This document shows positions 39,533 through 62,665 of a stretch of 64,000 nt of DNA, piece after piece. The stretch is from Micromonospora sp. ALFpr18c (GTDB taxonomy: Bacteria > Actinomycetota > Actinomycetes > Mycobacteriales > Micromonosporaceae), in the NCBI RefSeq assembly GCF_008868155.1, contig NZ_WBKR01000002.1:1-64000 (forward strand), written 5' to 3'. Each line of letters opens with the position of its first letter. Position 1 is the first letter of the stretch. The position numbers and the translations under genes are program-made. The notes under the pieces were generated by a model. That model was not told the DNA's origin and searched no databases. It saw nothing but the letters and a program-made list of their open reading frames with translations.

Positions 39533-41290
39533 ATGAGCGGCGGGCTCGACCGCAGCGCGGACGCCCTGCGGGACGGCGGTGCGGAAGCCGAGGTCCGCCC
39601 CTCCGACAGCGCCACCTTCATCTCCGCCGAGCCGCTGAACCAGCCGGCCATGGAGTCGACCGCCCCTCCGCAGGAGCAGGTGGACGAGGCGAGCGCGGCG
39701 ACCAACAGCGCGGTGATGGCGATCGGCAGCCTGGTCAGCCGGGGCACGGGCTTCCTGCGTACGTTGGCGTTGACCGCCGCGCTGGGTGGCGCGCTGGTCG
39801 GCGACGCGTACACGACGGCGCAGATCCTGCCCGGCATGGTGTACGAGTTCCTACTCGGCGGCATCCTCACCAGTGTCCTGATCCCGGTGCTGGTCCGCCG
39901 CCGGAAGTGCGACAGCGACGGCGGCCAGGCGTACGCCCAGCGGTTGTTGACCCTCGCGGTGCTGACCCTGGGGGCGGCGACCCTGCTGGCGGTGCTGTCG
40001 GCGGGCCTGCTGACCAAGCTCTACGCCGGCGACGACACCGGGAAGAACTTCCGGGATCTGGTCACGGCCCTGTCCTACCTGATGTTGCCGATGATCTTCT
40101 TCACCGGCCTCAGCGCGTTGATCAGCGCGGTGCTCAACACCCGGGGGCACTTCGCCGCCCCGATGTGGGCGCCGATCCTGAACAACATCGTGGTGATCGG
40201 CACGGCCGGGCTCTACATCGCGATTTTCGGCGCGGAGATCGTCCGGCCCGACGAGATGACCACCGGCCGGATCGTGTTGATCGGCGGCGGCACCCTGCTC
40301 GGTGTCGCCATCCAGGCCGCCGGGCTGCTGCCGGCACTACGCAAGGTCGGCTTCCGCTGGAAGCTGCGGTTCGATTTCCGCACCCTGGGGCTGCGCGAGC
40401 TGGGCCGGCTCGGTGGCTGGATGGTCTGCTACGTCGCGGTGAGCCAGGTCGGCCTGATCGTGCTGTTCAACCTGCTCAACCGGGCCGGCAAGGAGAACGC
40501 CGCCGGCCCACTGATCTACAACAACGTGTTCCTGCTGCTGATGATGGCGCACGGCATCATCGCCGTCTCGATCATCACGGCGCTGATGCCCCGGATGAGC
40601 GCGGCCGCCGCCGACGGCCGGTACACCGACGTCGCCGACGACCTGTCGCAGGGCACCCGGACCGTCTCGGCGGTGCTCGCCCCCATCGCGGTCTGCTACG
40701 CGGTGCTGGCCACCCCGCTGTCGGTGACGCTGTTCCGCTACGGCGCGTTCACCGACGAGAACACGGCCGACACCTCGCTGGTGCTGCTGCTGGCCGCGCT
40801 GGCACTGGTGCCGTTCGCGATCAGCCAACTCTTCATCTTCGCCTTCTACGCCCTGCCGGACACCCGCACCCCGGCACTGATCAACATTCCGGTGGTGGCG
40901 TTGCGGATCGGCGTGCAGGTGGTGCTCTACGTCGCCTTCGCCGCCCACTTCGCCGCGGCCGGAATGATGATCGGCAACGCGGTGTCCTACCTGGCTGCGG
41001 CATTCGCCTCGGCCTGGCTGCTGCGACCCCGGGTCGGCCGGATCGGGATGGGTGCCATCCTGCGCACGCTCGGACGGGTGGCGGTCGCCGCGCTGGGTGC
41101 CGCCCTGGTCGGGCTGCTCGTGGTGAGTCTGCTGCCCGGCGGCGACACGCCGAGCCGGATGCAGGCCGTGCTCCAGCTCGTGATCGGCGGCGTGGTGATC
41201 GGCGGGACGTACCTGGGCCTGGCCGTGGTGCTGCGGATCGGGGAGATCACCGAGGTGGTCGGTATGGTCCGCCGCCGCTTGAGTCACTGA
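39533..41290 (+). CDS. murJ: Lipid II flippase MurJ (MviN)
   Basis: 585 residues from ATG 39533 (MSGGLDRSADALRDGG) with GGGAGG six bases upstream. A 60-residue acidic disordered N-terminus precedes about 14 membrane helices. Motifs: NSAVMAIGSLVSRGTGFLRT, GLIVLFNLLNRAGKENAAGP, LMMAHGIIAVSIITALMPRM, TRTPALINIPVVALRIGVQV. MurJ moves lipid II across the membrane for peptidoglycan synthesis. The pseudokinase gene just downstream (492-base gap) is fused to MurJ in mycobacteria, so the two probably act together. Confidence 0.93.
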   Translation: MSGGLDRSADALRDGGAEAEVRPSDSATFISAEPLNQPAMESTAPPQEQVDEASAATNSAVMAIGSLVSRGTGFLRTLALTAALGGALVGDAYTTAQILPGMVYEFLLGGILTSVLIPVLVRRRKCDSDGGQAYAQRLLTLAVLTLGAATLLAVLSAGLLTKLYAGDDTGKNFRDLVTALSYLMLPMIFFTGLSALISAVLNTRGHFAAPMWAPILNNIVVIGTAGLYIAIFGAEIVRPDEMTTGRIVLIGGGTLLGVAIQAAGLLPALRKVGFRWKLRFDFRTLGLRELGRLGGWMVCYVAVSQVGLIVLFNLLNRAGKENAAGPLIYNNVFLLLMMAHGIIAVSIITALMPRMSAAAADGRYTDVADDLSQGTRTVSAVLAPIAVCYAVLATPLSVTLFRYGAFTDENTADTSLVLLLAALALVPFAISQLFIFAFYALPDTRTPALINIPVVALRIGVQVVLYVAFAAHFAAAGMMIGNAVSYLAAAFASAWLLRPRVGRIGMGAILRTLGRVAVAALGAALVGLLVVSLLPGGDTPSRMQAVLQLVIGGVVIGGTYLGLAVVLRIGEITEVVGMVRRRLSH

Positions 41291-41782
41291 CCGCCAGCAT
41301 CCGATCACACGGTGGCCCACCACGGAACGTGACCGCAGATCACCAGCCTGGGGATGCACCTGTGGATAACTCCGCGATTCGCCGGTCAACAACCGGATCG
41401 TCCTGTGGATAACCAACCGTACGGATGAGCGTGGTCCCCCGATCGGTGGGAACATGCCGGTGAGCGAAGGTGCCATTCAGGGTCGGCCCCGACGTCGGCC
41501 GCTTGCGATGAAGCCGTAGATTAGCTAGTACATGTGCCAGCAACGTGGCTGACAACGGTAGTAATCGGACGACTTCCCCGACTCCCGGCACCCCGCCGGG
41601 TACGGCGGGAAGATGACATGTCGGGGAGACGGGCAACCCGGGTAAGGTCGCTCTCGACGGGTACGGCAGGCGCCGACGCTGGGCGTCGGCATCGGTCGGC
41701 CGGTTCCTTCGACGGCAGAGCGGGAAGCCACATGCCCAGCAGTTCGGGTCCATCGATCGACACGATCACCGAGGGAGGACGG
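41291..41782. other. murJ-pseudokinase intergenic region with two DnaA boxes
   Basis: TGTGGATAA (complement of the TTATCCACA DnaA-box consensus) occurs exactly at 41361-41369 and 41404-41412. Otherwise no gene; the end of this stretch holds upstream candidates for the start of the next gene (ATG 41618, ATG 41732). Confidence 0.6.
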
Positions 41783-43339
41783 GTGACCCAGGTCGGCGAG
41801 GGTCAGGAGGCGGACGAGAGCGCTCCGCCGGTCATGACCTTCGGTGCTCCCACGGCCGGTGAAATCCTCGCCGAGCGTTACGAGCTGGTCGAGCACATCA
41901 ACAACGACAGCGCGGGTCGGCTGGTCTGGCGCGGGGTCGACGTCATCCTGCGCCGTCCCGTCGCGGTCGTGCTGCGCTACCCGGGTGGCGACTCCGCCAC
42001 CGAGATGCTTCAGGCCGCCGTCGCGGCGAGCCGTGTCATCCATCCCAACCTGGTCGGCGTCTACGACGCGATCGACGAGGCCGAGCGGGCGTACGTGGTC
42101 CGCGAGTGGGTGGACGGGCAGTCGCTGCGCGACCTGGCGACCGAGGGACCCCTGGACCCGGCTCGCGCCACCGCGATCGGCAACGCCGCCGCGAGCGCGC
42201 TCGCCGCGGTGCACGCCACCGGGATGGTGCACGGCAACGTCCACCCCGGCACCGTCATGATCAGCGACGAGGGCCGTGTGGTGCTGGCCGACGCGCGCAC
42301 CGACGGCGCCGACAGCCAGGAGAACGACATCCGGGCGGTCGGCGGCATCCTCTACTTCGCCCTGACCGGTCACTGGCCGCACGCCGAGGCACCACTACGC
42401 GGTGCCACCGCGGGCCACGGCCGGGCCGCCATCCCGGACGCTGTCCGGGACGCCGCCGGCGCCATCGCGGCACCTCGCCAGGTCCGGGCCGGTGTGCCCG
42501 CATACCTGGACGACCTGACCATGGATCTGCTCGACGCCGAGATCGCCCCGCCCTCGTCAGACGTGCTCGCTGCCGAGCTGGCCCGCCTGGACGTGCCGGC
42601 CGAGGATGAGCACTACCTCGACAACAGCGGCCCGCTGCGGTTCGCCGCCGACACCGAGGAGGAGCCGTCGCCGCTGGCCGCGGCCGGCGGTCGCAAGGTC
42701 GCCGTGGGCATCGCCAGCCTGTTGGTGGTCGCCCTGGTCGGTCTGCTGATCGGGATCAGCGCCCTCGGCGGTGACGACAAGGAGCAGCAGGCCAACCCGG
42801 TCGCCACGCCCACCTCCGGCGCGCCGACCGGTGACGCCACTCCGGCCGCCGCCACGGCGCACAAGCTGACCGTGAAGAGCGTGCGGATCATCGACCCGTA
42901 CAGCAAGGACCGCAGCGAGGTCGACGGCGCCGACAAGGTCATCGACGGTGACGATGACAAGGGCTGGGAGACCGAGACCTATCGGGGCTGGCCCAACTTC
43001 GGCAACCTGAAGAAGGGCATGGGCGTCTGGATCGACCTGGGCCAGCCGCGCAACGTCAAGTCGGTCCAGGCGGTGCTCTCGGCCACTGGCGCGTCCGCGC
43101 AGCTCCTCGCCGGCACCACCAACCCGCCGTCCAGCTTCAGCGGCGACAAGCAGCTGGTCGGCAGCTACAAGACCGCGATCGGCCAGCCGTTCGAGGACCA
43201 CGACGGCACCACCATGACGTTCAACGGCTTCGACGCCGACACGAAATACCGGTACCTGCTGTTCTGGATCACCGAGCTGCCCCCGGCCGAGGGTGGTTTC
43301 AAGCTGGGGGTGCAGGAGATCACGGTCCAGGGGTCGTGA
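41783..43339 (+). CDS. Membrane-anchored pseudokinase with external discoidin-like domain
   Basis: 518 residues from GTG 41783, chosen because GAGGGAGG lies 4 bases before it; ATG 41732 would add 17 residues. The kinase-like domain (about 25-260) lacks catalytic residues: the strand-3 Lys is lost (RPVAVVLRYPG), HRD is replaced by HGN (VHGNVHPGTVMIS) and DFG by DAR (VVLADAR), so no phosphotransfer is expected. A membrane helix at about 305-327 (VAVGIASLLVVALVGLLIG) leads to an external F5/8 type C-like beta domain (KSVRIIDPYSKDRSEVDGAD, WETETYRGWPNFGNLKKGMG, GFKLGVQEITVQ). The same domains are the C-terminal part of mycobacterial MviN (Rv3910), which recruits a forkhead-associated partner. Confidence 0.88.
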   Translation: MTQVGEGQEADESAPPVMTFGAPTAGEILAERYELVEHINNDSAGRLVWRGVDVILRRPVAVVLRYPGGDSATEMLQAAVAASRVIHPNLVGVYDAIDEAERAYVVREWVDGQSLRDLATEGPLDPARATAIGNAAASALAAVHATGMVHGNVHPGTVMISDEGRVVLADARTDGADSQENDIRAVGGILYFALTGHWPHAEAPLRGATAGHGRAAIPDAVRDAAGAIAAPRQVRAGVPAYLDDLTMDLLDAEIAPPSSDVLAAELARLDVPAEDEHYLDNSGPLRFAADTEEEPSPLAAAGGRKVAVGIASLLVVALVGLLIGISALGGDDKEQQANPVATPTSGAPTGDATPAAATAHKLTVKSVRIIDPYSKDRSEVDGADKVIDGDDDKGWETETYRGWPNFGNLKKGMGVWIDLGQPRNVKSVQAVLSATGASAQLLAGTTNPPSSFSGDKQLVGSYKTAIGQPFEDHDGTTMTFNGFDADTKYRYLLFWITELPPAEGGFKLGVQEITVQGS

Positions 43340-52426: not shown

Positions 52427-52612
52427 GACGCTGACCCTAACCGAGTCTGGCACCGCTGTCCCTACCCGATTGAACGCTCCCGACCGACCAGGTCAGCGTC
52501 CACCGTCGATCGGTTCCCGGGTTCTGCGACGCCCGGTGGACGGATATCCACAGGCTGCCGAGATCCCCGACACAGGCCGTCATCCACAGGCTGGCACCCG
52601 CTTTCACGCGGC

Positions 52613-52626
52613 GTTTCACGTGAAAC
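52613..52626. promoter_or_regulatory. parS site 1 (GTTTCACGTGAAAC)
   Basis: Exact 14-base core of the chromosomal ParB-binding palindrome, 11 bases from a TGTGGACAA box. The core matches the parS consensus TGTTTCACGTGAAACA. Confidence 0.93.
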
Positions 52627-53256
52627 GGGGGGTGCCTGTGGACAACCGGTGTGGATAACTTTTCCGGCCCTCGTTCGTTGCGTCCGGACGGCCGATCCGG
52701 TGCGTCGAGTCTCCTGCGGACCGCTGGCGGGGGCGGCTCGGGGACGTGTGATGGCCAGCCCTGCGCCTCGACAGCCCCGGTCATCTCCCCGCGCGGCTCT
52801 CGCGAGGGTCGGGTGAACCATCCCCGGCCGCCGCGATCGCCCGGCACACGGGCAACGTCAGCAGTTCACCGCCGGCACCTTCGATCCGCTGTCGGTACCC
52901 CGGCGACCGAGTCGGGCTGTTGCGGCCGGGCCGAACCCCGCCACCCGGTTCCCGGCGACAATCGGCCGGCGGGTCGAGGCGCGCGACGCCGACTCGGCAC
53001 TCTCACCCGCCGAGTCAGACCCGATCGACCGGCGGGTCCAGGCGGGGGCGGGGGCCCTCGAAGCCGGTCCGGCGAAACGTGGGGCCCGGACGCACGAACG
53101 CGCAAGGCGACCAAGAGGCCGCGACTCGACGTGCTCAGACACCAGCCCTCGCGACCGGTCTACGGGCTGGCAGGAGGCTACTGAGCGGGCGCACGGGGCC
53201 CCTCCATGATGATCCCCGGGCAACCGCATCCGCCCGGGGGCCCCGACGAGCGCTCG

Positions 53257-59594: not shown

Positions 59595-60233
59595 GTCAGG
59601 CTCTCCGTTTTCGTACGCGCCCCGGGCGACGGGATCGCCGGGGTCGTGGGGTGGTCCAGGCCACCTCGACGGTGGCCACCGATCGGTGCTGCCCGGCGGA
59701 GCGGGACCTCGGCGATGCGGGGATGCGGCCGCGGACAGCAAGCACCCATCACCCTAGCAGAGGGCGAGAGAGCAGCCGCTCCAGCCTACGCAGGGGGGCA
59801 ATGACCGTCAAACACCCCGCTGCGGCGGACAACGGGTCCGGGCCGGGACTCGCCCGGGACCGAAGGGGCGGTTTTCGCTGATGCCGACAAGGGTGCCTTC
59901 GCGCCGCCGGTTGATGGCGCAGGGACAACGCTGTTACCGTGCCCGATTGCGGTGAGCGTCGGAAGCTCCGGTCGTCGCACAGGCAAGACCGGACAAGGTA
60001 GTGAATCGTTCGGCACGGTGAACCCGCTTCAGCGCCCGTTCAGGCAGGGGGCAGGTCCCACCCGCGTCCGACGGGCGGCCACCATCGGTCTGCACACAGG
60101 TTGTGGATAACCTGTGGACGACCACCGGTTGACGTCCGGGTGGGTGATGTTCCACCCGCGCACGCGGCGGGCCCGGGACGGCCGGCTGGCAGACAGCGGC
60201 GGCCGGGAGCAGAGGCGAGGGGGTGGCACGACG
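59595..60233. other. Divergent rpmH-dnaA intergenic region
   Basis: About 640 bases without a gene. Near the dnaA side TGTGGATAA (60102-60110) and TGTGGACGA (60113-60121) lie 11 bases apart, which may let DnaA control its own gene. Promoters for both genes should lie here; I could not place them. Confidence 0.6.
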
Positions 60234-62220: not shown

Positions 62221-62665
62221 CGCTCGTTGTCCACAACTCGTTGTCCACCGGCTGTGGATAACTACAGTCGGCCCGCCGCCGGTTACCCACAGGTTGTGGA
62301 AAAACCCTGTGCACGACGCTGTGGACGCTTGGGGACAACCGTCGCGTTGTCCACCGATGACCACTGCCCTGTGCACGACCTGTTGAAGGTTCTGGGGATG
62401 ACGACAATGATGATCTTCGTGGCCGTCCACAGGCTTGGGGAGAAAGTCGGTGGATTACCGGTGGACAACCGGTGGACAACGGTGGACAACCGACCGCCGA
62501 AGCCGGGCTGTGGACACACGAGCCGGTTGTACCCCCGGTTATCCACAGTCAAATCACCGGTGGATAACCTGCCTGAGCTGCGCGAACCCGGGTTCTCCAC
62601 AGTTTGCACAGGTGCGATGAAGACGATGAGTTATCTCTTCTAAGAGAACAAAAACCAATCATCAC
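62221..62665. other. oriC: Chromosomal origin of replication oriC
   Basis: Clustered DnaA boxes between dnaA and dnaN in both orientations. Exact or one-mismatch boxes include TTGTCCACA 62227, TTGTCCACC 62241, TGTGGATAA 62253, TTACCCACA 62283, TTGTCCACC 62347, three GGTGGACAA at 62460/62471/62481, TGTGGACAC 62509, TTATCCACA 62539, GGTGGATAA 62559 and TTCTCCACA 62593. The AT-rich stretch 62625-62665 (with TCTCTTCTAAGAGA) at the dnaN end is the most likely unwinding region. Confidence 0.92.

Follow-up and report, generated by a model that had tools for sequence, protein, structure and literature searches.

The C-terminal half of Mycobacterium tuberculosis MviN (Rv3910; structures 3otv, 3ouk, 3oun, and 3uqc), which appears as ActPs3 in the available part of PMC12599244, combines a degenerate pseudokinase, one transmembrane helix, and an outer domain of the sugar-binding type. 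Its contacts have been described: PknB phosphorylates T947, FhaA binds there, and nonphosphorylated CwlM binds an essential MurJ linker, E541 to F680, between transmembrane helix 14 (TM14) and the pseudokinase (PMC10166564, PMC6180346). The role of this half is unsettled. It has been reported to be dispensable in mycobacteria and looks essential in Corynebacterium diphtheriae (PMC10166564), and for FhaA both an inhibiting and a promoting effect on wall synthesis have been proposed (PMC11898655). The mviN extension is also said, in the accessible text of PMC10166564, to occur only in organisms with arabinogalactan. Here we describe the corresponding locus of Micromonospora sp. ALFpr18c, found in a window of 64,000 nucleotides (positions 1 to 64000 of contig NZ_WBKR01000002.1, here C2, in a 6.7-Mb genome), where the lipid II flippase gene murJ and the pseudokinase gene are separate.

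The original prediction held that the two are distinct genes with a 492-base gap and DnaA boxes between them, and the analysis bore this out. The first gene, murJ (39533..41290, forward strand), encodes 585 residues that match Pfam MurJ and exceed the cutoff of TIGR01695, murJ_mviN (267.9 bits versus 235.55); flipping activity is predicted for the product. The second (41783..43339, forward strand) encodes a 518-residue pseudokinase-transmembrane-CBM32/discoidin protein from a GTG start preceded by a Shine-Dalgarno-like gggagga, and the start column is GTG in all 79 aligned sequences (the window plus 78 of 80 family loci, L098 and L118 being left out). The gap, 41291 to 41782, holds two perfect DnaA boxes. 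Although both genes lie in the same frame, in-frame stops at 41288, 41330, 41426, and 41522 extend from the MurJ stop toward the GTG, so that neither a recent frameshift nor a single stop accounts for the separation. Close relatives of the window are Micromonospora, and the pseudokinase protein is up to 94% identical to those of the named loci, that is, the 80 best loci in a scan of named genomes with the window protein, whose titles are nearly all of Micromonosporaceae genera. The separation of the MviN modules is stable among them: all 80 were split, with gaps of 172 to 1,883 bp and every reading-frame relation represented. Across 37 genomes of the same genus, the window's included, the gene lay in frames of at most 752 amino acids (one match, in G014, was partial). 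In Plantactinospora alkalitolerans the murJ-pseudokinase region occurs twice in opposite orientations on one contig (L097 and L098, NZ_JADPUN010000144.1), as either a duplication or an assembly artifact.

In PDB the second protein has its nearest solved relatives in 3otv/3uqc/3oun, structures of the MviN/Rv3910 kinase-homology domain from M. tuberculosis (E about 2.6e-17), with PknB next (E of 3.3e-15). Its pseudokinase domain spans about residues 26 to 270 (41858..42592, forward strand) and has a short activation segment. The claim that it lacks the Lys, the HRD Asp, and the DFG Asp was correct for the first two and wrong for the third. The beta3 Lys is replaced by Val (phmmer against PknB, MAFFT against Rv3910) and the HRD Asp by Asn (HGN), but D170 (in ADAR, 42290 to 42292) occupies the DFG Asp position in both alignments, although neither the F nor the G is there and the activation segment is largely gone. 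Both N152 and D170 are invariant in 23 aligned Micromonosporaceae proteins. Motif residues varied widely in the 76 aligned class rows, of which six (L034, L043, L143, L144, L151, and L173) have the Lys and one (L195) has the HRD Asp. The invariance of D170 and the six rows that retain a beta3-column Lys might be taken to indicate a catalytically active atypical kinase, but with the Lys and the catalytic Asp gone from the window protein, the HRD Asp present in a single row, and the activation segment mostly deleted, we regard this as very improbable.

Beyond the pseudokinase domain, a single likely transmembrane helix at residues 304 to 327 (42692..42763, forward strand) was recognized from a modeled helix and a hydrophobic sequence, and was predicted at modest confidence (predicted local distance difference test score, pLDDT, of about 40 to 67). 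Residues 361 to 518 (42863..43336, forward strand) form a block of pLDDT 86 to 97 whose fold matches CBM32/discoidin structures (the top match, 4a42, a CBM32, with an E of 1.4e-6; 4zxe with a TM(target) of 0.79 and an E of 3.3e-6), a domain that a Pfam sequence search of the window protein did not find; it is presumably located outside the cell. Other members of this pseudokinase family are said to lack a carbohydrate-binding domain, according to the available part of PMC12599244. In each of the 75 loci with a stated range, a profile that includes this domain matched to at least position 473 of 488. The window protein thus resembles the C-terminal half of Rv3910 in its degenerate pseudokinase, single transmembrane helix, and outer sugar-binding-type domain and shares two features of ActPs3, the activation-loop deletion and the transmembrane helix after the kinase domain; a third, complete degradation of the catalytic motifs, is found only in part, since an Asp is kept at the DFG position. 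It differs from the mycobacterial protein in being encoded by a gene of its own, in lacking the T947 motif, and in accompanying a MurJ without the CwlM-binding linker.

The split arrangement itself is known: in the S6 Fig legend of PMC10166564 a “protein kinase family protein” is described as a frequent downstream neighbor of mviN orthologues without the extension, so that its frequency is already in print. Its place and its description mark it as a gene of the same kind as ours, but in the available part of that paper it is not treated as a detached pseudokinase. Our literature search on this topic, in which papers were mostly judged without their full texts, found nothing else about the detached gene. 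The interest of the locus lies chiefly in its use as a comparative system and in its conserved DnaA boxes.

That the split is the common, and probably the ancestral, state in the class Actinomycetes was a point absent from the original prediction. A search of 148 genomes gave some profile match in 147, many of the matches listed being to ordinary kinases only. From these and the same-genus matches, 80 loci were picked by hand, mostly one to three per family (labels such as f8 denote families in this sample, and L and G numbers denote loci and genomes); f31 contributed five, f8 eight of its nine listed genomes, and f34 all of its ten. Both genes were present in 75 of these, 54 split and 21 fused, a ratio that is not a frequency because the loci were hand-picked; the other five were pieces without MurJ. 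The fused loci belong to four families: f34 (10), f8 (8), f4 (2), and f29 (1). A quick tree of the 75 loci and the window (76 rows) places the fused rows on separate branches; they need four changes, at least three of them forced by starred branches. An approximately unbiased (AU) test rejected a single fused clade (p-AU 1.4e-5) as well as a fused clade of f4 plus f8 (p of 9.6e-8) and did not reject one of f34 plus f29 (p of 0.35); this test is weakened in that it covered 26 rows picked by hand, used a simpler model, and compared groups chosen after the tree had been seen. Fusion seems to have arisen at least twice.

The direction of change can be considered from both sides. With a midpoint root, fusion alone requires four gains and fission alone ten losses, and over 74 rootings the numbers are 4 to 11 and 10 to 18 events, respectively. 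An ancestral fusion of the mycobacterial kind, later broken in two in this lineage, is favored by the frame that the two genes share in the window and by a shared frame in 9 of 30 loci of f15, a family that groups with the fused f8. However, one pair of genes in three should share a frame by chance, most of the 80 family loci have the two genes in different frames, the window has four in-frame stops and 492 bp between its genes, and fission alone demands 10 to 18 events where fusion alone demands 4 to 11. We therefore consider a fused ancestor improbable. The detached state is most likely the older one as well as the usual one in the class, and the mycobacterial fusion most likely derived, in a comparison whose root was assumed and not inferred from the data.

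The proposed restriction of the fusion to organisms with arabinogalactan was not supported. The arabinosyltransferase family PF04602 was present in all seven fused f8 genomes tested but absent from the fused genomes of f34 (10/10), f4 (2/2), and f29 (1/1, a genome 72% complete), in contrast to what is said in the accessible text of PMC10166564. Two of eight split genomes tested had PF04602, both of them from f15 (two of three f15 genomes); the five split genomes from outside f15 did not.

When two neighboring genes have been fused repeatedly, this is a classical sign that their products serve a common task. Since murJ and the pseudokinase gene lie near each other and have repeatedly been fused, their products are likely to act together. 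The original prediction went further in taking the split as showing that the modules act in trans, which overstated the case, since separation alone is no proof; the repeated fusions and persistent adjacency do hint at a shared task. On the available sequence evidence, we think it fairly probable that the pseudokinase gene is the detached orthologue of the MviN C-terminal half and encodes a conserved accessory protein of peptidoglycan synthesis, most likely acting in trans. In this model a cytoplasmic pseudokinase would be joined by one membrane helix to a CBM32/discoidin domain outside the cell. The outer domain may bind wall glycan or a lipid II-linked sugar, the inner pseudokinase would be a scaffold on which MurJ and/or Ser/Thr-kinase signaling proteins dock, and the gene would probably be transcribed from its own promoter. 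Besides the fusions and the adjacency, the wall hydrolase genes found between the two in other families, the flanking CwlM-like, sigma factor, and poly(A)-polymerase-like genes, and the -10-like motif conserved in all 80 gaps speak for this model.

Several observations weigh against this model. In the T947 column of the 76-row alignment the window protein has no counterpart of the phosphorylated Thr. Comparison with TIGR01695 found no CwlM-binding linker in the window MurJ, which lacks the long C-terminal extension and ends 9 residues after the match. Among the class loci, 1.3 to 4 kb separate the two genes in many lineages, so that strict co-expression is not required. In the full-length structure prediction the kinase half is poorly modeled, with a pLDDT below 50 for most of residues 1 to 307. 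Because the T947-like site and the linker are both absent, any partnership in trans would not use the exact mycobacterial contacts. The wall hydrolase genes, of the NlpC/P60 type, made up six of nine intervening open reading frames (ORFs) tested in other families (L142, L145, L151, L153, L186, and L189), and they count on both sides. Together with the missing phosphosite and linker of the mycobacterial complex (PMC6180346), these genes, present in several families, speak for a detached protein that works apart from MurJ, for instance with an NlpC/P60 hydrolase or the divisome, its adjacency to murJ being inherited gene order. The fusions, on separate branches, are specifically to MurJ, and we judge a role apart from MurJ to be unlikely, though still worth weighing. 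Of the six NlpC/P60 ORFs, four matched the PcsB coiled coil as well, with one match above the cutoff.

The FhaA pathway can be followed in the same set of loci. The motif T[DE]x[ILV] at the T947 column occurred only in the eight f8 rows (8/8) and in L039 among the 76 rows; a looser pattern applied to the tail around it picked up L029 and L031 in addition, though away from that column. L039 is the one tree row of f15, which groups with f8. Forty f15 genomes were searched and 30 gave loci, all 30 of them split; among the rest, G239, outside the examined set, shows a 1,176-amino-acid frame. A Thr stood at the T947 column in 19 of the 30 loci, and a Thr with Ile, Leu, or Val at +3 in 14. The T947-like site is therefore not tied to fusion. 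The window genome has an FhaA homologue (a PF12401 match on contig C152), and of the 28 genomes checked for FhaA_N, that of the window among them, 26 have it; the two without a match were G073, which is incomplete, and G050, the f15 genome of L039, whose lack of a match weighs against a simple FhaA reading.

It had been suggested that the split could help define the pseudokinase's own role. With the phosphosite for FhaA recruitment missing, the window protein may not report on that pathway directly; the class-wide comparison is useful. A natural set of fused and detached forms, in which the FhaA phosphosite and the arabinosyltransferases are each present in some organisms and missing from others, makes it possible to tell the roles of the pseudokinase half apart in soil bacteria that are harmless. 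Family f15 is the sharpest case, being detached in 30 of 30 loci and yet carrying the Thr with Ile, Leu, or Val at +3 in 14.

The conserved DnaA-box pair in the gap was an unexpected finding. Box 1 (41361..41369) and box 2 (41404..41412) are both perfect copies of TTATCCACA on the reverse strand, 43 bp apart, each inside a copy of the forward-strand 12-mer CCTGTGGATAAC. A search for TTRTCCACA on either strand in the gaps of the 80 named loci found two boxes in 57, one in 3, and none in 20; 55 of the 57 pairs (55 of 80 loci) were spaced by 42 to 45 bp, 46 of them by exactly 43 bp. In an alignment of 56 rows (the window and box-bearing loci with gaps under 700 bp, without L098 and L118), conservation reached 0.978 at box 1, the top 9-mer, and 0.915 at box 2, against a mean of 0.635 over 41291 to 41599, and box 2 ranked after one nonbox 9-mer at 41338 (0.938); the rows are related and were chosen for having boxes, and so do not amount to an independent sample. 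Beyond the genus, gap boxes occurred in 2 of 52 other split loci listed (one in L024, two in L027). Our literature search on DnaA boxes with mviN or Micromonospora, again mostly judged without full texts, found nothing on these boxes.

DnaA-box clusters near oriC repress untimely initiation in Bacillus subtilis and Streptomyces coelicolor (PMC4585315). The boxes here are like those clusters, as the available part of that source describes them, in being several DnaA boxes outside oriC and within tens of kilobases of it; they differ in forming a fixed-spacing pair in the murJ-pseudokinase gap. DnaA 9-mers with up to one mismatch numbered 18 in the window against 1.5 expected in shuffles, and contig C2, with 1.6% of the assembly, carries 9 of the 18 perfect boxes genome-wide; a reversed control pattern gave 5 matches in the genome. 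We suggest, tentatively, that the Micromonosporaceae spacer could be a dedicated DnaA-binding site, its pair of boxes 42 to 45 bp apart and about 21 kb from oriC, which might titrate or regulate DnaA or tie expression of the flippase module to replication. The same reading, possible but not probable, holds that the detached protein would be a general MurJ partner and not an invention of the mycolata, because its fusions to the flippase would have arisen independently in lineages whose walls differ considerably.

A direct role of the boxes in the pseudokinase promoter is disfavored, because boxes and the promoter-like motif are 1.35 to 1.6 kb apart in three loci (L092, L093, and L101). In L093 an ORF matching HerA_C lies on the opposite strand between them. 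The motif, GTAWGGTC (41642..41649, forward strand, with the -10-like TAAGGT), occurs in 80 of 80 gaps, in the window about 140 bp 5' of the pseudokinase start, and its conservation suggests a promoter. It sits in a conserved, apparently noncoding leader (41605..41782, forward strand) without codon periodicity, whose frame is closed 3 to 24 codons upstream of the start in 15 of 78 relatives; both features disfavor an N-terminal extension from the in-frame starts at 41534, 41618, and 41732. A riboswitch or other structured RNA in the leader was also considered. No Rfam match reached its gathering score in the window, the region from 41200 to 41900 giving only weak, unrelated ones (E of 0.65 to 8), and the leader shrinks to about 40 nucleotides in some relatives. 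We rejected an RNA on these grounds, in a comparison made without a covariation test; a promoter fits better, because the leader shrinks while the -10-like motif stays.

Other DnaA boxes mark the rest of this region. A cluster at 52544 to 52658, about 10 kb from oriC, consists of four DnaA-like boxes, of which one is perfect and the others have one mismatch each; a perfect box at 60102 to 60110 lies just 5' of the dnaA ORF start (60114), and a cluster at 62227 to 62601, between dnaA and dnaN, is the putative oriC. A further group, made up of two perfect boxes and a near match, stands outside the window just upstream of gyrA (L227, 10578 to 10617; contig C2, 70577 to 70616), following a stretch that looks like the end of gyrB, identified by reading only. 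The gyrA frame (L227, 10654 to 14433) reads through an intein-like insert, with Intein_splicing under and LAGLIDADG_3 over the cutoff.

The murJ-pseudokinase pair is flanked by a CwlM-like gene (Amidase_3 plus PG_binding_1), a sigma factor gene, and a poly(A)-polymerase-like gene, and by reading of the ORFs a thioredoxin reductase/thioredoxin pair lies in the same neighborhood. We take the same flanking genes to accompany mviN in mycobacteria; the sigma factor, the CwlM-like gene, and the thioredoxin reductase/thioredoxin pair would then be common to both neighborhoods. Two more MurJ homologues occur elsewhere in the genome (C56, 8821 to 10167; C62, 11279 to 12475), and both are unfused, since their frames are only 596 and 580 amino acids long.

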